DNA of 64,000 bases from assembly GCA_016906335.1 (NCBI GenBank), contig JADEYG010000002.1, positions 1,127,001-1,191,000 on the forward strand. The letters run 5' to 3'. The position numbers and the translations under genes are program-made. Below the pieces are notes generated by a model, which ran no database searches, had not been told where the DNA came from, and saw only the letters and a list, made by a program, of their open reading frames with translations. Origin of the DNA: Novakomyces olei. Its lineage: Eukaryota > Ascomycota > Novakomycetes > Novakomycetales > Novakomycetaceae. Below, one piece after another: positions 28,533 to 62,712 of this stretch. Position 1 is the first letter of the stretch, and each line of letters opens with the position of its first letter.

Positions 28533-31500
28533 ATGTCGAAATCGTCGAGCGGCAGTGCGAGCAGCGGTGACGGGGACAAGCTTCAATGGAAGGCTCGCGC
28601 TAATAAGCGGCTGCAGGCAATAGCGTCTATTACGGGAGAACTTACTCGCACTAAAAGTCAGCCTCAATTCGAGGACGGGTCGGGTGCAGAGCCCGACCAG
28701 CAGAATTTCAATAATTGGGCTTTCCCCAAAGACGACTTGGCCGTCCCCGCCGAGGCAAGTCGGACCGTTTTGCCACACGTGCCCCTGAGCAGTGCAAGGG
28801 CACCCGCAAAGACTAATAGAGGCACAGCAAAGACCCCAGAAAATTCAAGAGCAAACCACAATCGCAACTCCTCCAGCCAACCTGCCTCGGCCTCGCCGAC
28901 CAGCAGTGCCAAGCCGAAATCGGCCAAAGGCGATTTCGGTGACGTCTATGACAGAAGCGGGTCGTCGTCTCCGGCAGCTGGTCTGTCGGCCTCGTTGCAT
29001 TCTCCCAGCGCAAGCAATGTGCCGTCAACGGCAGGGTCGGATACACTGCCGTCACAGCGGAAGCCTAGATCTTCACAGCTCTTTAAAAAGTTTAGACGGA
29101 CGTATGGCAAGCTGCGGGAGGAATCAAAGCATTACAATGGCGGTAGTCATAACAGCAACAACAATAATAATAATAATAACAACAATAACAATAACAATAA
29201 TAACAATATTAGCACTTCGTCATCGGGAGGATTCTTTCACGATTATTCGTTTTATCCCAACCGGGTTTTCAGTGCTGGCTCAAAGTTTGAAACGTTGTCG
29301 CCGCTCGCCAGTTCGGCGTCTAATGACCAGCGCTATATGCTCGGCTACGGGTGGGATGGAGCAACTGCTTCTTCAGAAGATGCGTCTGATATGGGCGCGG
29401 GCGTACCCTGGGCCGACACTTCACAGAGCACTCCAAGGCCGCCCGCTGAGGCAGAGCACGAGCCGGCCGATTGGTACCAGCTGCCTGCTCCATCTAATGC
29501 ACACGATCGTGATTCTGCCAGTGTACAGCTCCCAGAATCAGCAAACTCATCCATAAGTCACATGAAGATTACGGCTTTTGCTAAAAGTTCAGACAAAGCA
29601 TCAGAAAAGGCAGAGAGTGCACCGGATCAGCGTCGGCCATCCGCAGTGAACCATTGTATCCGCATACTACGCCAAGACGGAACGTTTGCTACTGTGCTGG
29701 CCCGGCTGGATATAACTACGGACGGCCTTATCCAGATTCTTTGCCGAAAATTCTTCATTTCCAATCATACAGATCAGACAATTGTGCTATTTAAAAACGG
29801 GTTATCTAGAGAACTGGCGCCTCATGAAAGGCCGCTCGTAATACAAAACGATCTATTAAAGCAGGCTGGCCACACTGAAGACGACAGGCTTGAAGTATTG
29901 GGACGGGAAGATAATTCGATCCTGTGCAGGTTTGTCCTCGTTTCAAAGGCGTTTTACGAGTCGTCGATGGAAAACATATCTGTGCCGGAGGATACAGATT
30001 GCGTAGACTTGCTGGGCCGCAATTTAAAGCATATACCTATTGCAGTGTTGAAGCAAGCGGGCACGCTCAAGGCACTGGATGTCTCGCGCAACCTTTCCAT
30101 TGATATACCCGTGGATTTCCTGCAATCGTGTTCCCAGTTGGAGGTGATTAAGCTCCAAGCGTGCGAGATTAACGGAATCAACTCAAATTTTAACGAGGTC
30201 GTCAGCCTTAAATGCTTTGATTTGTCTGAAAACTTCATTGCCGACCTGCAAGGGTCACATTTGGACCGAAACCTAAGGCTGCGTGATCTCGAGTTGAGGG
30301 GCAATCTGTTAACGACAGTGCCCTCGTGGTTTGAGCATTTCGCGAGTTTGCAGACACTTAATCTCTCCTTCAACAGCCTGCAAGAGATCCCAGAGGCTAT
30401 CGCGTCTATAGGCACACTGACGCACCTGAACGTGTCCTTCAACATGCTATCGCGGGTGCCTGCGTCGATTGTAACAATGCCGAATTTGCAAGAGCTTTTG
30501 TGTAACAATAACAAACTCGATGAGCTTCATTGCTCCTTTAGCGAATCGCGTATAACCGAGCTGAACCTGCAGCACAACCGGCTAACAGATATCGACACGC
30601 TGATGGAGATGGTGTATTTGAAGAAAGCCGAGTGCGATTATAATGCTATTTCAAACGTACGGTTCAGTGGTCCCCGGCTGCAGCATCTATCACTGGCTCA
30701 CAATCCCCTGACCTCCTTTGAGGTCGTAGCGGCTGCCGAGTACAGTACAACGCTGCTCGACCTGAGCTTTGGTAAGCTCAGCAGCCTCGATCCCAATGTG
30801 TTTACGTACTTGAGCAACCTGAGGTCGCTGCGACTGGACCACAATCAGCTAACCTCCCTGCCCGCTGAAATTGGTGCTCTAACAAGCCTTAAAGACTTGA
30901 GCGCTTCGCAAAACAATCTGGCCAGTATTCCAGCAGAGATTGGAAACTGCTCGCAGCTGTCAAAAATCAATCTGTACTCGAACAATCTCAAGAGCATCCC
31001 TCCGCAGATATGGGACCTGGCAGAGCTGAGTTTTTTGAATGTTAGCTCAAACCTGTTGACCGCGTTTCCCGTCCCGGCTCCAAGCGCAGACGCAAGAGAT
31101 GGAAAAGGAAGAGATGGAAGAGGAAGAGATGGAAAAGGAAGAGATGGAAGAGAAGGAGAAGGAAATGAAAATGACGGAAAAGAAAATGACGGAAAAGAAA
31201 ATGACGAAAATAACGAAAAAGAAGAAAACCAGCCAGTGGGTGAGCCAGTGGGTGAGCCAGCAGACCGTGAGCGGCAGTCGTCTGCTACGTCATTGTCGCG
31301 AGCAGACCGGGCGGCGGTACGGAGTCTGATGTTTCTGAACCTTGGAGACAACCAGTTGACGGACGACTGCTTTGAGTCTATCTGTCTGTTTGACAATCTG
31401 TGTGTACTGAACCTGTCGTACAACGAGATATTCGAGATCCCCCAAGGAGCCTTTGCACGTATGGGCAAGTTGCGAGAGCTGTACATCTCTGGCAACGAGC

Positions 31501-34500
31501 TGACAGCTCTGCCGGCGGACGAGTTTGACCATCTGCGGCTGCTAAACGTCCTCTTTGTCAACGGCAACAAGCTGCAAACCATCCCGGCAGAGCTGGCGAG
31601 GGTGCGTCATTTAGGAGCGCTTGATGTGAGTGGCAATGCGCTCAAGTACAATGTAACAAACTGGCCGTACGACTGGAACTGGAACTACAACCCAGAGCTG
31701 TTTTACCTCAACCTGTCTGGCAATAGGCGGCTGGAAATAAACCATGGGACAACGAATAGGGAGCGGTCACTCACCGCCTTTGAGCGGCTGACAAAGCTGC
31801 GGATGCTGGGGCTAATGGACGTGACGCTCACGATCCCGACTGTCCCCGAGGAGTACGAGGACAGACGGGTGCGGACAATCGGCACTGACCTGAACAACGT
31901 AAGGTGGGGGGTCGCTGATTTTACGGGTCCACAGCACCATATCCGGGCCACTGATCTGGCCATTTCACAGTTCCGGGGCAACGACAAGGAGTGGGTCTTT
32001 GCCGTCTTTGACGGGATTGGAGTGGCAGACGGGCCCAACAAGGTGGCCATGTACCTGCGCCATACGTTTGCCAGCAAATTTGCCCACGAGCTGGCCAAAT
32101 TAGCGAGTGGAGAGGCTGCCGGAAATGCCTTGCGCCGCTCCTTTTTAGCGCTCAGTAAAGACTTGGGTCTCGTAATGCCTCCAGCTGGACGTGACGAGAA
32201 GCTGTACAGTCTGCTCAATGTACCACTCAGTTCGAGCCGTGACACTCGGCCAGAATTTGCCTCTAATTTCAGTGTGGCAGACAGAAGCACTGGAGCTTGT
32301 AGTATCGTGGCCCACGTCTGTGGCCGGCGAATCCACCTCGCCGGCCTCGGCACTTGCCTTGCCGTAATGGCCAAGACGGACGGCGATGCCGTTTGCCTTA
32401 CACAACAACATTCTGTCCGGAACGAGGCGGAAGTGAGACGTGTAAAGGCAGCGGGCGGCTTTATAGACAGCAAAGGCCGTCTGAACCGTCGGTTCAGAGC
32501 CTTTAGGGCTATCGGCTGTGCCAGCGATGCGCCTATAGTCCAACCAGCGCCCTCTCTCACGACCATTGACGTCACCGAGTCTGACGATCTTTTAATATTG
32601 GCCAATGACGGACTGTGGGACTATATAACGTTTCAGACAGCGGCCGATGTAGCCCGAACCCACCGTACTGACCCGCTGGCGGCCAGTTTAAAGCTGCGAG
32701 ATTTCGCTCTTGCCTATGGCGCCAGCAAGACGGTTATCGTAATGGTCATTGCCGTCCACGATATATTTGCTGGACGGCTAACAAGGCCGCCTCATGTGGC
32801 AGTCGGCAGCAGCCTGCATAGGCCCAATATGGGCCTTTTGCTGGCAGAGGAGGACTACCTCCTCAACTACCGCTCTAAACTGCGCCGCAGCGGCCGCTCA
32901 AGTGGACCAGAGGACTCTACACTGGCCAGACTGAGCCGGGAAGTGGCCCCTCCAACTGGGATGGTAGCGCTCGTGTTTACAGACATCAAAAACTCGACAC
33001 TCCTGTGGGAGACAGAGCCGGAGGCTATGCGCTCTGCTATGCGGCTGCACAACTCTATCATCCGCCGTCAGCTGCGTACGATTGGCGGGTACGAAGTGAA
33101 GAACGAGGGCGATGCCTTTATGGTCTGCTTTCCCACTGTCACGTCTGCCCTGCTGTGGTGCTTCACCGTCCAGACTCAGCTGCTTAACGCCGACTGGCCC
33201 GCCGGCGTTAAGCACGGAGGTAACGTTAGAGTGCCGGGGGGGGAGTATACGCAGCTGTACAACGGCCTCTCTGTCCGTATGGGGATCAACTGGGGGGCTC
33301 CGGTTTGTGAAGTTGATCCTATCACGAAGCGCATGGATTACTTTGGGACTGTTGTCAATCGAGCTGCTCGGATAAGCGCCGAGGCTGACGGTGGAGAGAT
33401 TACCGTCAGCTCTGATTTTTGCAAGATGCTGAACCGGTTGCAATCTTTGTCGGCTCTATCGGCTCTGTCGAAGACAGAGAAGGCAGAGTCGACTCTGTCA
33501 AAGACAGAGGAGACTCTGTCAGAGACAGACAGGACTCTGTCAAAGACAGAGACAGAGTCGACTCTGTCAAAGACAGAGACAGAGAGGGCTCTTTCAAATA
33601 CAGAGAAGACTCTTTCAAATACAGAGCTGTCAAATACAGATAAGGCTCTGACAAAGACAGAGAGGGCTCTTTCAAAGACAGAGAAGACTCTTTCAAATAC
33701 AGAGGAGACTCTTTCAAATACAGAGACAGATAAGGCTCTTTCAAAGACAGAGCTGTCAAAGGCACAGACAGATAAGATTCTGTCAAAGACAGATAAGACT
33801 CTGTCAAATACAGAGAAGGCTCTGTCAAATACAGAGAAGACTCTTTCAAATACAGAGCTGTCAAAGACAGATAAGGCTCTTTCAAAGACAGAGCTGTCAA
33901 ATACAGACGAGACTCTTTCAAAGACAGAGACAGATAAGGCTCTGTCAAAGACGGAAACAGATAAGGCTCTTTCAAAGACAGAGACGGCTCTGCCATCTCT
34001 GTCTCTGGCAGAGCCAACTGACCTGGAGCTGGCGGACCTCGGGATGGACAGTGTCACACTTCAAACAGTGACGCGCGACTTTGGCGCTCTGCACAGGATC
34101 GGGTACGAGATCCACGACCTCGGCGAGCGCAAGCTTAAAGGCCTCGAGTCGCTCGAGTGGATAGCGCTCGTGTTCCCTTCCAATCTTGCCGGACGGTACT
34201 ATTACACTCGGCACCGACTGGACTCTAACGCTGCCTCTCCTCGGACACAGAGTGCCGATGCTTCGGGTCTTTTACCCGCCGCTGCTGAAGCCGCTGCTGA
34301 AGAGCTGGCGGCTGCAGATGCTGCGGCAGAAGCGTCACGGATACTGAGGCCAGAGGCACTGGAAGTGCTGCCTCTGCTGCACCGCCTTGTCGCCCGATTC
34401 TGGAGGATTCTTGTACGGCTCGAGAGGTGCAACGACAGCACTTTTGGCAGCAATCTGCGCAGGCCGAGCGATCTGCTCATCAACTTTCAGGAAACTATTC

Positions 34501-34664
34501 TCGATAACCTTCCGGAAGACGAGGCCGACGAAATCTACCTCGGGTTCATCGTCGACTTTCTGCGCCGTCTGGAAAGCGCTATTCTCTCTATCGCCCTCTG
34601 GAAACACGGGATCAGCCACGACGAGATGCTCTCACAGGTCTTGAAGATGAAGCCAGAAAGGTGA
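28533..34664 (+). CDS. CYR1: Adenylate cyclase Cyr1
   Basis: Membrane-associated Ras-regulated adenylate cyclase making cAMP for PKA. A single 2043-codon frame. Order: Ser/Pro-rich N-terminus with a poly-Asn run (about 210-228); Ras-associating domain (about 370-480, NHCIRILRQDGTFATVLARL); leucine-rich repeats (about 490-1110) interrupted by a charged Gly/Lys/Glu/Asn-rich insert (about 855-915); PP2C-like domain (about 1115-1420, WVFAVFDGIGVADGP, ILANDGLWDYI); class III catalytic domain from about 1473 (MVALVFTDIKNSTLLWE, DYFGTVVNRAARISAEADGG). A repeat array of about 180 residues (about 1645-1821) interrupts the catalytic fold before its last strands (GYEIHDLGERKLKGLESLEW, about 1855-1875). 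The C-terminal 100 residues match the region that binds cyclase-associated protein in yeast. Metal-binding Asp in TDIKNST and the second Asp in NEGDAFMV are present. Confidence 0.95.
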   Translation: MSKSSSGSASSGDGDKLQWKARANKRLQAIASITGELTRTKSQPQFEDGSGAEPDQQNFNNWAFPKDDLAVPAEASRTVLPHVPLSSARAPAKTNRGTAKTPENSRANHNRNSSSQPASASPTSSAKPKSAKGDFGDVYDRSGSSSPAAGLSASLHSPSASNVPSTAGSDTLPSQRKPRSSQLFKKFRRTYGKLREESKHYNGGSHNSNNNNNNNNNNNNNNNNNISTSSSGGFFHDYSFYPNRVFSAGSKFETLSPLASSASNDQRYMLGYGWDGATASSEDASDMGAGVPWADTSQSTPRPPAEAEHEPADWYQLPAPSNAHDRDSASVQLPESANSSISHMKITAFAKSSDKASEKAESAPDQRRPSAVNHCIRILRQDGTFATVLARLDITTDGLIQILCRKFFISNHTDQTIVLFKNGLSRELAPHERPLVIQNDLLKQAGHTEDDRLEVLGREDNSILCRFVLVSKAFYESSMENISVPEDTDCVDLLGRNLKHIPIAVLKQAGTLKALDVSRNLSIDIPVDFLQSCSQLEVIKLQACEINGINSNFNEVVSLKCFDLSENFIADLQGSHLDRNLRLRDLELRGNLLTTVPSWFEHFASLQTLNLSFNSLQEIPEAIASIGTLTHLNVSFNMLSRVPASIVTMPNLQELLCNNNKLDELHCSFSESRITELNLQHNRLTDIDTLMEMVYLKKAECDYNAISNVRFSGPRLQHLSLAHNPLTSFEVVAAAEYSTTLLDLSFGKLSSLDPNVFTYLSNLRSLRLDHNQLTSLPAEIGALTSLKDLSASQNNLASIPAEIGNCSQLSKINLYSNNLKSIPPQIWDLAELSFLNVSSNLLTAFPVPAPSADARDGKGRDGRGRDGKGRDGREGEGNENDGKENDGKENDENNEKEENQPVGEPVGEPADRERQSSATSLSRADRAAVRSLMFLNLGDNQLTDDCFESICLFDNLCVLNLSYNEIFEIPQGAFARMGKLRELYISGNELTALPADEFDHLRLLNVLFVNGNKLQTIPAELARVRHLGALDVSGNALKYNVTNWPYDWNWNYNPELFYLNLSGNRRLEINHGTTNRERSLTAFERLTKLRMLGLMDVTLTIPTVPEEYEDRRVRTIGTDLNNVRWGVADFTGPQHHIRATDLAISQFRGNDKEWVFAVFDGIGVADGPNKVAMYLRHTFASKFAHELAKLASGEAAGNALRRSFLALSKDLGLVMPPAGRDEKLYSLLNVPLSSSRDTRPEFASNFSVADRSTGACSIVAHVCGRRIHLAGLGTCLAVMAKTDGDAVCLTQQHSVRNEAEVRRVKAAGGFIDSKGRLNRRFRAFRAIGCASDAPIVQPAPSLTTIDVTESDDLLILANDGLWDYITFQTAADVARTHRTDPLAASLKLRDFALAYGASKTVIVMVIAVHDIFAGRLTRPPHVAVGSSLHRPNMGLLLAEEDYLLNYRSKLRRSGRSSGPEDSTLARLSREVAPPTGMVALVFTDIKNSTLLWETEPEAMRSAMRLHNSIIRRQLRTIGGYEVKNEGDAFMVCFPTVTSALLWCFTVQTQLLNADWPAGVKHGGNVRVPGGEYTQLYNGLSVRMGINWGAPVCEVDPITKRMDYFGTVVNRAARISAEADGGEITVSSDFCKMLNRLQSLSALSALSKTEKAESTLSKTEETLSETDRTLSKTETESTLSKTETERALSNTEKTLSNTELSNTDKALTKTERALSKTEKTLSNTEETLSNTETDKALSKTELSKAQTDKILSKTDKTLSNTEKALSNTEKTLSNTELSKTDKALSKTELSNTDETLSKTETDKALSKTETDKALSKTETALPSLSLAEPTDLELADLGMDSVTLQTVTRDFGALHRIGYEIHDLGERKLKGLESLEWIALVFPSNLAGRYYYTRHRLDSNAASPRTQSADASGLLPAAAEAAAEELAAADAAAEASRILRPEALEVLPLLHRLVARFWRILVRLERCNDSTFGSNLRRPSDLLINFQETILDNLPEDEADEIYLGFIVDFLRRLESAILSIALWKHGISHDEMLSQVLKMKPER
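33465..33995 (+). repeat. 21-nt (7-aa) coding tandem array inside CYR1
   Basis: About 25 units of a 21-nt repeat encoding variants of (A/T)LS(K/N)TE(K/T), with shortened units (ELSNTDK, ETDK). The array stays in frame. Its antisense frames are also open, producing long shadow ORFs. Units differ mainly at two codons (AAG/AAT), typical of unequal exchange. Confidence 0.92.
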
Positions 34665-35264
34665 GGACTGGTCGATAAACAACTCGTCCACGAGGTACAG
34701 TCCTGCTGCTACTCACCGGGTTCTGGTCGGACGTACTTTTTTATAGAGCTTTGCATTGCGGGTTGCGTATAATGAATCGCTGGTGTTTAGTTCTTTGTTG
34801 TTTTAGCGTTATTTAGTATCGACGTTTAGTACAGTATTATGTTTATAGTATTGACATTGTCAGTGTTGAGAATAGCTTATTCAGAGTTTGCTGCCATTTC
34901 CAGGGCTCTAGCTTAGGATCTGCCATCAACTAGGCTCTAGTTTAGTCTTGCACGAGTATTAGTGTACGAGTCAGTGTACGAGTAGTGTACGAGTCAGTGT
35001 ACGAGTCAGTGTACGAGTCAGTGTACGTCTAAAAGTAGCTATATTGAATGTACTCTATTGAATGTACTCATTGAATGTACTCATTGAATGTACTCATTGA
35101 ATGTACTCTATTGAATAGACCAAATCTGCAACAATGGATCATTGTCTATCAATCTCTTAAATACCACGTTAGATCTGTCAACGATTTAGCAATAGAAACT
35201 CTTTTCTTTGCATTACTCTTCTTCAAAGATGAATCTTCAAAGATGTATTCTCAAAGATGTATCT
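34665..35264. other. Convergent interval CYR1 / CSC1-type gene with minisatellites
   Basis: Three neighbouring short arrays: GTGTACGAGTCA units at 34961-35028, ATTGAATGTACTC units at 35042-35117, and TCAAAGATG units at 35222-35272, the last running up to the stop of the channel gene. No gene. Confidence 0.7.
34961..35117 (+). repeat. Two adjacent minisatellites (12-nt and 13-nt units)
   Basis: First array: five to six copies of GTGTACGAGTCA. Second: five copies of ATTGAATGTACTC, some with an extra T. Both lie in the 3' intergenic region of CYR1. Confidence 0.85.
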
Positions 35265-39559: not shown

Positions 39560-39671
39560 TAGATAATAGATAATAAATAATAAATTATAAATTACAAATT
39601 ATAAATTATATACAGTACTGTGAAGGGGTATATGATAACGACACTTTATAAATAATAAAAAGTGAAAAAAG

Positions 39672-39742
39672 TGCGATAACCGAGAATCGAACTCGGGTTA
39701 CAAGTTTGGGGAACTTGAGTGCTACCTCTACACCATTACCGC
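39672..39742 (-). tRNA. tRNA-Gly (anticodon CCC)
   Basis: 71-nt cloverleaf, intronless. Acceptor GCGGTAA pairs with TTATCGC (one G-U), discriminator A. D-arm stem GTGT/GCAC with loop AGAGGTA. Anticodon stem CAAGT/ACTTG with seven-base loop TCCCCAA; variable TAAC; T-arm stem CCGAG/CTCGG with TTCGATT. Internal A and B boxes are canonical. A T6 run (39670-39665) follows at once as pol III terminator. In the strict cloverleaf position 33 is C instead of the near-universal U. Confidence 0.92.
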
Positions 39743-41839: not shown

Positions 41840-42467
41840 AATGAAATAGAGAGCTTGTGGCGCTAGACTAGGATTGTTGTCCCGGGCTAAATGAGTGTTT
41901 TGATGGGGATTTATGGATATAATGTCATAGTAAAAGAGGCAATCAATGTCTGAAAAGTTGTTTATTGAGATTTAGGTTGAAGTTTGTTTAAAAGATGTCG
42001 ACTTGTATTACTGTGATATAAATATAAATATAAATATAAATATAAATATAAATATAAATATAAATATAAATATAAATATAAATATAAATATAAATATAAA
42101 TATAAATATAATATAAATATAAATATAAATATAAATATAATATAAATATAAATATAAATATAAATATAAATATAAATATAAATATAAATATAAATATAAA
42201 TATAAATATAAATATAAATATAAATATAAATATAAATATAAATATAAATATAAATATAAATATAAATATAAATATAAATATAAATATAAATATAAATATA
42301 AATATAAATATAAATATAAATATAAATATAAATATAAATATAAATATAAATATAAATATAAATATAAATATAAATATAAATATAAATATAAATATAAATA
42401 TAAATATAAATATAAAATAAATATAAATAAATAAATTACTATACAACTGCTACGCAGCACTTTATCA
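41840..42467. other. Interval MET3 / RBD2
   Basis: Mostly occupied by the (AAATAT)n satellite. The long minus ORFs made of FIFIFI or LYLYLY are translations of that repeat. Confidence 0.8.
42016..42434 (+). repeat. (AAATAT)n hexanucleotide satellite, about 420 bp
   Basis: About 70 tandem copies of the hexamer with only a handful of interruptions (shortened ATAT copies near 42108 and 42138, AAAT units at the end). It stops about 34 bp before the RBD2 start codon. Confidence 0.97.
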
Positions 42468-44922: not shown

Positions 44923-45962
44923 TTGCGTAGACTGGTCGTTAGAAATGTGGGGGTTGTAAGAACGTGGGGATTGTAAGAACGTGGGGATTGTAAGAAATGT
45001 AGAAAAATTGACAAGGAAACGAGATACAAGCAATTGTTCTGTGCCGATAGCATACGAGTCTGACCCATCCTGTTGGGCCAAACGAGTTTGCAGCACAGCT
45101 GTTCCCACGAAACTTACAGATTGTTCCGCCAAAGTCAAGACGGCTTTTTGCTTGCGAGATTGATTATTAGGAAAAGTTTGTACTTTACCTGCTGTGCCGC
45201 TTCAATCGGTAGAAAACAGGCCTGAAATTAATGCGGAAATTAAACGGTAGATATCGCGCTGTGCCAATTTAATCCGCTGTCGGCAATCACACTGATTCTT
45301 TTTGCGTGCACGTTGATCTCCGTCTTTTTATCGGGATTCTATCAGCCCACGTTACGCCCACGTTTTGTGTCGTACCCTATTAATAATACTATAGTACAGC
45401 GCTGCACGGTATGTTACTTGACTGTTTTATCTTTATAATGGAGGCTGGATGGACGACTTTGTAGCACGCTGTTACTTGTAGCCTGTGGTAAGTATAGATT
45501 TACATACAGAACGCCCAATTATTCGAGTTTTTGCCACTACGCTGTCTAATATTATTAATCAAATAAATTACAAAATTTACAAAATTACAAAATTACAAAA
45601 TTACAAAATTACAAAATTACAAAATTACAAAATTACAAAATTACAAAATTACAAAATTACAAAATTACAAAATTACAAAATTACAAAATTACAAAATTAC
45701 AAAATTACAAAATTACAAAATTTATTTCTTAGTACAAACAGCAATTCGTGTACGAGCAATTGTTTATACAATCAACAACTGCCTGTAAACAAACTGTCAA
45801 GTACTGACAAGCCAATCAATGGGACGCGTTGCTTACTAGTAAACATGCACAATATACTACTGCAACAAGTGGAAAAAAATAAATTAAACGTATGCTCGGT
45901 AATCCATTACTGCCTTTGAAAAGACTGTCATTCCTAAACCAAAGTAACAAGCGTTTGGGCGC
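44923..45962. other. Interval dehydrogenase / aconitase
   Basis: Contains three GTGGGGATTGTAAGAA(C) units at about 44948-44999 and the octamer satellite at 45566-45722. The 144-aa plus ORF here is mostly the satellite read as YKITKLQN and is rejected. Confidence 0.6.
45566..45722 (+). repeat. (AAAATTAC)n octamer satellite
   Basis: About 19 nearly perfect copies of the 8-nt unit, between the dehydrogenase promoter and the aconitase 3' end. Confidence 0.95.
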
Positions 45963-59616: not shown

Positions 59617-62600
59617 ATGGCGCAGCAAGTCGCGCGACGTCGAATCGCGTCTCGGCGCAGGTCGTCTTTACAAAATGACTCGAAATCTGATCGTGCGCGG
59701 CGCGTGACAAGGCGACACAGTTCAACCGCCCAAGATACTTTTCAACGAGAAAGCAGCCGACTGCCACGGGCTCGGCGACAGCGATTGTCGGTCGATGTTT
59801 CTGGACTGCGTGGATCAGTTGACAAGGCGGATGAATTATCACAGAGGTCTGAGGAATCGCCGACTAAACGTGTAAAGCTGGGGACGCGATCGGCATCGAG
59901 CGATGATACGTATACTGATACAATTGAGGCTCAAGAAAAGACGCCTCCTGACTCTGACGATTCAGGTTTTACTAGAGTGAAAATTGCTCACAATGTTCAA
60001 GTCGTGATTGACGCGGACGATGTGGAAAACGCAAAGTCTTTTATCAACCATGAGCCTAGTGAGTATGACGGTGATAGCTCTTCCCTTGACTACAGGACTG
60101 CGAGTGAAGCAAGTTCGGGCGATGCGGCTGAGAGATCCGAGGAAAATGCTGATTTAGACGACAGCAACGTTCCTGTTCATATTGAGCAGATTGAGGTTGA
60201 TATCGACAATGACGAAGCAGATGCAGATGCAGATGCACAAGATAAAAGCAGTACGAGCTCTGCGAGTGCTCAGACATTTGAGAGCCGCAGTAATTTAGAC
60301 GAGTCTGAGAAAGATGAAGAATCGTCTTCTTTGGCAGACGAACCCCATCGTGCGCAAACTGTGAAGCCGGCAAGTAAGAAAGCAGCTTCGTTTGAGATCC
60401 AATTGCTCCGCCAAAAGGAAATGCCCCTTATTGAACCTGCGCTAGGGCAGCCCTTTTGTCCACGAGCAGAATATTTTTCCGAGGACATTGGCGATGAGGG
60501 AGACCCTGGTCTGGTAATAGCATTAAAGCCAGAGCAGGTCATTCCAGTACGGGGTCTTTGTGAGATCCAAGTGCTCCGTGGCAAATTGGCGGTTGCAGGC
60601 CGTGTCCTTACTGCTCCATCCCCCTCTTTTCCCATTTTCGCCCCCGAGTGCAGAGCTCATCCAGTCCTCGTAGCCTTACCGTCAAGTGCAGAACAGGAGC
60701 TGGAGTCCAGTATTAAACTAGCAGTATCAGCAAAACTTGAGGCAGTGTTACAAAGACCTGCACTGGCGGACAAAATAGTGTTTACAGTGCGTAATTACAA
60801 CACATCTCTTTTGCAAATGGCAAACATTGCTCCTAAAGCTGGATCGCTTTGGAAGTACTACAGTCCTACACTAACATTTGCCATTGAGCCTGCTGCCAGC
60901 ACACAGGCACCGCCTTCGTCCTGGTCGAGCGTTGCCATCACTATTGCTCAACAGGCAGTGCTGCCTCAACATACAGGGCAAAGGCTAGTTGTTGCAGGGG
61001 CCAAACATACGGGCAAATCAACATTTTGCCGGTTCCTGGCCAACAGTCTGATTACACAAGGCATTACTCCTTACTTTTTGGATATAGATCCAGGCCAGCC
61101 TGTATTTGCTCCGCCAGGAAGACTGGCCTTGAACCGTTTGTCCCCTGAGCAAATATACGTTTCACCTTTCCAGGCTCCGGAGCAGGAGATTGCAGCCTTT
61201 TACTTTGGCGAGGTAACTCCGGCTGTAAACATGTCGCTGTACAAGCAATACGTTTGCGCCCTGTACGCAGCTTACGAAGTATCGTGCAAGGACGAGTTCG
61301 GTAGCCATGTGCTGATTGTCAATGGCACCGGGTGGATCAAAGGCTTTGGCAGGGAGTTGTTACTTGAAATGCTTGATTATGGGCATACAGACACCCTACT
61401 CTATGTGGGGGCCCGGGATCATGACCACAGCGGACTGCTTCAGCTGCCTGCGGCAATAAACGCCGAGTACTTTGACGGTCTCTTGCCGCTGGATACGAGT
61501 GTGAATGCCGCACAGTACCGTGAACTCGTTCTCAGCTTTTATCTTCACTCAAATGCAGAGCAGTGGGATGCTCGTCCTTTATCGCAGCACAATGTTCTCG
61601 TCGCAAGTTATGGAGAGAGAAGAGTTGATAAACAAATTGCCCAAGGCATGAAAAACATTGATGAAGAAAAGTCCGGGACACAAGAAATGGTACAGGAAAA
61701 GGCACAGGAAAGTGTTCAGGAAAATGTCCAGGAAAATGTGCAGGAAAATGTGCAGGAAAATGTGCAGGAAAATGTCCAGGAAAATGTCCAGGAAAATGTC
61801 CAGGAAAAGGCTCAGAAAAATGTTCAGGAAAAGGACGCCATTGAGGAGAATGATGCGAAAAAGAATGAGCACTCTGATGATACTGAACACATTAATGAAA
61901 ACAATAGTATCGAGAACAAAGATAATGTCGGTATTGCTGAGGCGGAAAATGAACCCGAAGATGGGACCAAACCTGTTGCAGGCAGTAATACTGGCAAAGC
62001 AAACGATAATCTTCACGATCGTGAGGATATCGAAAATGGCAATTCTGGTGACGATGAAAAAGAGACTGAACCGAGCAGTGAGAACATGGAAACAGTCGAA
62101 AACGGAAAAGACAGCAATATCCAAATTGACGTAAATAAAAACGGCGACATTGACAATATTGACGATAAAGTTTTTGACAATGAGAATAAAAATGAAAGTA
62201 ATAAGGACAATATAACTGTGACTAGAGACATTGATGCTGTCATCCTTCCACGCTCAGACATGCTAATTGATGACGCCATAAAGGCTCTGCCTGGTACAGT
62301 GGTAGGAGTGGTAACTTGTGACGCAGCCCACGCACAAAAAATACAGGATCAAATTGAGCACACACCGGAATTGCTGCCGATTATCACAATGAGCAGGCCT
62401 CAACTGCTTCCAAATTGGCTGACTGGGACACGGTGCTTGGGCCTTGCAGTGGTTCGGAACATTGATACTTCTTCTCAACGAATACTGCTTACTGGGCCAA
62501 TTGCACAGAAACAATTGCTGGATGCAAAATCAAGTGGCCAAAGGGTGTTTCTTATTCGTGGAAGCGGTTTGAATTTGCCGGCGTGGGAATTACATTGCAG

Positions 62601-62712
62601 TCCATATGATTACACTGCACCCGCTCCGTATGTATCTTTTACACCTATCATCGGAATCGGCAGAAGCTCGTGGCGTGTCCGGCATAATCTTGTGCGTGGA
62701 GCTGCCTCTTAA
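59617..62712 (+). CDS. GRC3: Polynucleotide 5'-hydroxyl kinase Grc3 with long acidic insertion
   Basis: Nucleolar RNA 5'-kinase (Clp1/NOL9 family) acting with Las1 in ITS2 processing and in Pol I termination. Intronless, 1031 aa from the first ATG. A basic N-terminus and acidic low-complexity region fill 1-260. A beta-rich N-domain is at about 270-440. The kinase P-loop VVAGAKHTGKSTFCRFL is at about 458-474, and the Walker-B-like YFLDIDPGQPVFAPPG at about 488-503. The C-terminal domain resumes at about 870 (DAVILPRSDMLIDDAIKALPG) and ends near SPYDYTAPAPYVSF. Between about 665 and 868 lies an insertion starting with VQEN repeats, then Asn/Asp/Glu-rich. S. cerevisiae Grc3 is only 632 aa. Divergent from RPA34. 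Confidence 0.9.
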   Translation: MAQQVARRRIASRRRSSLQNDSKSDRARRVTRRHSSTAQDTFQRESSRLPRARRQRLSVDVSGLRGSVDKADELSQRSEESPTKRVKLGTRSASSDDTYTDTIEAQEKTPPDSDDSGFTRVKIAHNVQVVIDADDVENAKSFINHEPSEYDGDSSSLDYRTASEASSGDAAERSEENADLDDSNVPVHIEQIEVDIDNDEADADADAQDKSSTSSASAQTFESRSNLDESEKDEESSSLADEPHRAQTVKPASKKAASFEIQLLRQKEMPLIEPALGQPFCPRAEYFSEDIGDEGDPGLVIALKPEQVIPVRGLCEIQVLRGKLAVAGRVLTAPSPSFPIFAPECRAHPVLVALPSSAEQELESSIKLAVSAKLEAVLQRPALADKIVFTVRNYNTSLLQMANIAPKAGSLWKYYSPTLTFAIEPAASTQAPPSSWSSVAITIAQQAVLPQHTGQRLVVAGAKHTGKSTFCRFLANSLITQGITPYFLDIDPGQPVFAPPGRLALNRLSPEQIYVSPFQAPEQEIAAFYFGEVTPAVNMSLYKQYVCALYAAYEVSCKDEFGSHVLIVNGTGWIKGFGRELLLEMLDYGHTDTLLYVGARDHDHSGLLQLPAAINAEYFDGLLPLDTSVNAAQYRELVLSFYLHSNAEQWDARPLSQHNVLVASYGERRVDKQIAQGMKNIDEEKSGTQEMVQEKAQESVQENVQENVQENVQENVQENVQENVQENVQEKAQKNVQEKDAIEENDAKKNEHSDDTEHINENNSIENKDNVGIAEAENEPEDGTKPVAGSNTGKANDNLHDREDIENGNSGDDEKETEPSSENMETVENGKDSNIQIDVNKNGDIDNIDDKVFDNENKNESNKDNITVTRDIDAVILPRSDMLIDDAIKALPGTVVGVVTCDAAHAQKIQDQIEHTPELLPIITMSRPQLLPNWLTGTRCLGLAVVRNIDTSSQRILLTGPIAQKQLLDAKSSGQRVFLIRGSGLNLPAWELHCSPYDYTAPAPYVSFTPIIGIGRSSWRVRHNLVRGAAS
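61687..61836 (+). repeat. 12-nt coding repeat (VQEN) in GRC3
   Basis: About 12 copies of a 12-nt unit CAGGAAAATGT(C/G), encoding VQEN/VQEK/AQEK, at the start of the GRC3 insertion. Confidence 0.9.

Follow-up and report, generated by a model that had tools for sequence, protein, structure and literature searches.

The window analysed here, a 64,000-nucleotide stretch of DNA from the ascomycete Novakomyces olei, lies on contig C2 of a genome of 14.34 Mb in 15 contigs. Its plus strand carries a CYR1-type adenylate cyclase open reading frame (ORF; 28533..34664), a single open frame of 2043 residues (P0001) in which Pfam places RA_3 at residues 376–468, LRRs, PP2C at 1237–1400, and Guanylate_cyc at 1473–1637, all above cut-offs. 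The order of RA, LRR, PP2C, and class III cyclase domains identifies the predicted product as fungal Cyr1. Like many of its homologues, P0001 has no match to the G-alpha binding domain PF08509 among its Pfam hits at E ≤ 0.001, and the C-terminus, the CAP-binding tail region of fungal Cyr1, is helical in the predicted structure. Our subject is a tandem array of 24 LSxTE-type units in the cyclase domain of this protein (33465..33989, plus strand; residues 1645–1819), delimited by unit listing, Tandem Repeats Finder (TRF), and a repeat search.

Each unit consists of LS(K/N)TE and a spacer. The leucine codon of the first LSKTE starts at 33465 and the last unit starts at 33969, in agreement with the position 33465..33995 given in a first-pass annotation of the sequence. 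That annotation described about 25 copies of a 7-residue, 21-nt unit. The copy number is close to our count of 24 and somewhat above the 21.5 copies of a 21-nt period reported by TRF (33480–33930, 72% matches, 14% indels), but the regular spacing holds for only about half of the array: the 23 unit-start intervals measure 7 residues in 12 cases, 9 in six, 5 in four, and 10 in one. In DNA, the same intervals are 15, 21, 27, or 30 nt, all multiples of three, and TRF also reports higher periods of 27, 36, 57, 90, and 153 nt. A search of both strands of the window with the unit-core 17-mer CTCTGTCAAAGACAGAG, allowing up to three mismatches, gave 26 matches (21 on the plus and 5 on the minus strand), all of them in 33463–34013, against 0.24 expected and a maximum of 2 in shuffled sequences. 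The array therefore shows what characterizes a coding minisatellite, namely tandem units above chance, in frame, with lengths that are multiples of three.

The two parts of the cyclase domain lie on either side of the array. The pre-array part (approximately residues 1473–1644; 32949..33464, plus strand) is supported by Pfam, by the sequence match to PDB entry 1fx4, and by the strands and helices of the structure model, and the post-array part, a helix and the last two strands (residues 1840–1882, including K1869; 34050..34178, plus strand), by alignment, model, and PDB superpositions. Residues D1484, K1523, D1527, D1602, N1609, R1613, and K1869 are identical in 24 of the 24 aligned rows; we take D1484 and D1527 to bind metal, K1523 and D1602 adenine, and K1869 phosphate, with N1609 and R1613 acting on the transition state. 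Since K1869 lies downstream of the array, the latter must be read through in translation or else excised without shifting the frame. The model, built on a homologue alignment covering the whole C-terminus, has after the array a helix (model residues 372–388) and two strands (390–399 and 406–414), with a block predicted local distance difference test score (pLDDT) of 90–97 over 371–420, and the PDB superpositions of the model span this part of the domain. In the model, a single fold spans the array, and the class III cyclase domain appears intact around it. Alignment, model, and superpositions agree that the insertion is within the cyclase fold rather than after it, as first proposed, and they would place it in a surface loop bounded by the helix that follows the SSDF motif and by the helix leading to the GERKLKG strands. 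The S. cerevisiae Cyr1 variant K1876M may fall near these strands.

The loop that holds the array spans 251 residues here and 60–100 residues in 205 homologues. The excess of about 180 residues is close to the gap of about 200 originally claimed. The homologues were drawn from the best 120 of 1989 and the best 120 of 2356 proteins, beyond which longer insertions may exist; among them are unnamed metagenome proteins and a few that are nearly identical, and 12 PF00211-only proteins, P0002 (a reverse ORF), and P0220 were set aside. No comparable insertion was seen among these 205 proteins, which bears out, for this set, the early remark that fungal Cyr1 offers no parallel. A protein search with the array alone returned one match with E = 4.1, which we count as nothing, and the titles and abstract openings returned by literature searches mention no such array within the cyclase domain of a fungus.

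Between 33465 and 33995, the array frame is open. Of the remaining forward frames, one contains 1 stop and the other 7; on the reverse strand, two of the three frames have no stop. Relative to the 15-nt core consensus, the 24 units show 31 departures. Of these, 27 fall on the third codon position, 4 on the first, and none on the second. Silent departures number 13 and residue-changing ones 18, compared with 12 silent, 29 replacement, and 4 stop changes among all possible single substitutions of the consensus. This codon-position pattern favours selection on the protein frame, though less strongly than the counts suggest. Three other ways of reading the region were considered. Removal of the array by splicing is disfavoured by the open frame and by the absence of a GTRNGY donor in 33380–34120, although a non-canonical site could still exist there. 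A gene on the reverse strand (ORF 33406–33996, 196 residues) was rejected by inference, since stop-free reverse frames are to be expected from a near-palindromic unit. Finally, decoding of CTG as serine was rejected: at sites before position 177 of the aligned piece, which were those used, CTG residues 23, 46, 72, and 82 are leucine in 51, 49, 43, and 52 of 52 homologues, indicating that CTG reads as leucine.

The composition of the array raises the question of a selected regulatory insert, that is, a multi-site phosphorylation loop with CK2-like S-x-x-E sites, whose charge would alter dimerisation or activity and whose copy number would tune cyclic AMP (cAMP). The array contains 29 S/T-x-x-D/E sites, compared with 12.5 in shuffled sequences, the second codon positions of the core are invariant in the 24 units, and the array is flanked on both sides by catalytic-domain sequence. 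But all 29 sites come from one repeated motif and so are not independent evidence, and the homologue set contains no such loop. Phosphorylation of the array is possible from its motifs; we regard selection for a regulatory insert as unlikely.

A further suggestion of the first-pass annotation, a heptad register or coiled coil, is not supported for the array as a whole. A stripe of leucines at 3.5 residues per turn gives R = 0.16 against a random mean of 0.15 (p = 0.42) and 1.00 for a perfect heptad, and a continuous hydrophobic heptad register breaks down because little more than half of the intervals (12 of 23) have the 7-residue spacing. Model residues 308–361 are without structure, with a block pLDDT of 29–35 over 311–350. 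In favour of a structured coiled coil or long helix that would add a surface for dimerisation or partner binding, the model draws much of the array as helix with low to moderate confidence, with helices at 159–205, 215–260, and 270–307 (block pLDDT 40 to 96), the first of them at 85–96 over most of its length, and several runs of 3–4 units hold the register locally. Given the leucine statistics and the unstructured stretch, we find this explanation highly improbable; a flexible, partly helical spacer is the shape that fits best.

At the DNA level, the array unit is the near-palindrome CTCTGTC-AAA-GACAGAG, with GACAGA-type steps of 6 nt; units 1, 2, 4, and 5 form all seven possible pairs, and the remaining units form between 3 and 6. 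The left end of the array (33461..33509) is an inverted copy of its right end (33967..34015), the 49-nt arms being 80% complementary in the inverted-repeat search and paired in the predicted RNA fold. For 33450–34020, that fold has a long stem joining both array ends. Its z-score is −10.2 relative to dinucleotide shuffles, −6.9 relative to synonymously recoded sequences, and −4.3 when the reference is the array's own codons in permuted order. Arms and fold alike would suit an insertion, either of a foldback element similar to a miniature inverted-repeat transposable element (MITE) or of an element that works at the RNA level and is excised from the mRNA or acts in it. Terminal inverted repeats are a mark of MITEs, but every unit here is itself near-palindromic, so that long stems are expected. 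A DNA search of the genome, in which simple repeats were skipped, found no match at E ≤ 0.001 beyond the locus itself and no second array copy. With up to two mismatches, the 17-mer has 28 genome matches, 21 of them in the array (20 on the plus strand and one on the minus) and 7 at single sites elsewhere. With the frame open and no GTRNGY donor nearby, a foldback or RNA-level origin seems to us very improbable. The strong fold can be understood as a trace of palindromic origin, and a role in the mRNA is possible.

Taken together, these results make it probable that the array is a coding minisatellite housed in a loop of the Cyr1 cyclase domain that accepts changes in length. A short, near-palindromic stretch of DNA would have been duplicated again and again, in frame, inside this surface loop, with growth presumably by slippage or unequal exchange. 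Translation would add about 180 charged, Ser/Thr-rich, flexible, and partly helical residues, leaving the cyclase domain intact on either side, and the effect may be near-neutral or mildly regulatory. Any role other than that of a spacer which the enzyme tolerates would be hypothetical, and variation in copy number between strains is possible.

Several points weigh against this interpretation. Neighbouring units resemble each other no more closely than units in shuffled order do (13.17 versus 13.07 of 15 positions, p = 0.30), so that a unit-by-unit slippage history is not visible, while multi-unit periods are. The array RNA folds more strongly than the protein sequence alone requires. More than half of the core departures (18 of 31) change the residue, and the departure counts overstate selection on the frame because the units are related by descent. 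Furthermore, translation of the array is inferred, and its length is known from one assembly.

It should be noted that the insertion itself is real; the kind of repeat is ordinary, and what is unusual is its location inside a catalytic domain. As a probable coding minisatellite, the array would change the view of the enzyme only if strain variation affecting cAMP were shown. The locus nevertheless marks one loop of a fungal cyclase domain as able to hold about 180 extra residues, which would be useful for placing tags or switches, and it invites one to ask whether a central signalling enzyme can be tuned by the length of a repeat within its catalytic domain. A bolder version, in which unit number and phosphorylation would set the freedom of the strands carrying the phosphate-binding lysine, repeat length would evolve cAMP output, and mRNA hairpins would add translation control, is in our view very doubtful.

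The array is accompanied by other repeats in the same gene. A second coding tandem-repeat stretch (31094..31260, plus strand) lies in the linker between LRRs, where TRF detects it and the homologues have no consensus; it reads GKGRDGRGRDG..., NDGKENDGKEN..., VGEPVGEP. A poly-Asn run occupies 29163–29208. Because these two accompany the array, repeat growth at variable linkers appears to be a pattern in CYR1. TRF repeats make up 4.7% of the window and 947 of 29505 bases in its 11 Pfam-supported genes, 731 of those bases being in CYR1. Downstream of the cyclase stop codon, at 34960–35116, are two noncoding minisatellites, of 12 nt (AGTGTACGAGTC) and 13 nt (ATTGAATGTACTC). Farther away are a 6-nt ATATAA repeat outside the Pfam-supported genes (42016–42429, 69.5 copies, 98% matches), a repeat of AAATTACA (45565–45722, 19.6 copies), and a 12-nt coding repeat (61693–61832, 11.7 copies) that gives VQEN repeats in a CLP1/NOL9-type P-loop ORF (59617–62712). 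The sole Rfam match in the window at gathering score is a tRNA-Gly (CCC) on the minus strand (39671–39742).

In a quick tree, P0001 falls at the ascomycete base, outside the group of 31 rows comprising Pezizomycotina and Saccharomycotina, with Saitoella nearest by path; the placement is unsure and the branch very long (1.53). Several fungal proteins with LRR, PP2C, and cyclase domains (P0022, P0032, P0036, P0054, P0084, P0100, P0116, P0163, P0190, P0216, and P0219) are publicly named ‘cysteinyl-tRNA synthetase’, which looks like a naming error.

Compared with known systems, the protein shares with fungal Cyr1/Cdc35 the domain order RA-LRR-PP2C-class III cyclase and the catalytic residues, and differs in that the loop preceding the GERKLKG strands is longer by approximately 180 residues. 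The closest solved cyclase domains, by sequence and fold, are those of Trypanosoma brucei GRESAG 4.3/4.1 (1fx4, 1fx2) and mycobacterial Ma1120 (4wpa). For 1fx4, 204 of the 231 residues align to model residues spanning 1–425, indicating that this structure lacks anything corresponding to the array. Coding minisatellites are described in PMC3899988 as widespread and prevalent in cell-surface genes. With those of yeasts and other eukaryotes, this array has in common in-frame tandem units whose lengths are multiples of three; their usual mark is length variation between strains, and the array comes from a single assembly. In contrast to the usual coding minisatellites, it sits in a catalytic-domain loop of a signalling enzyme.
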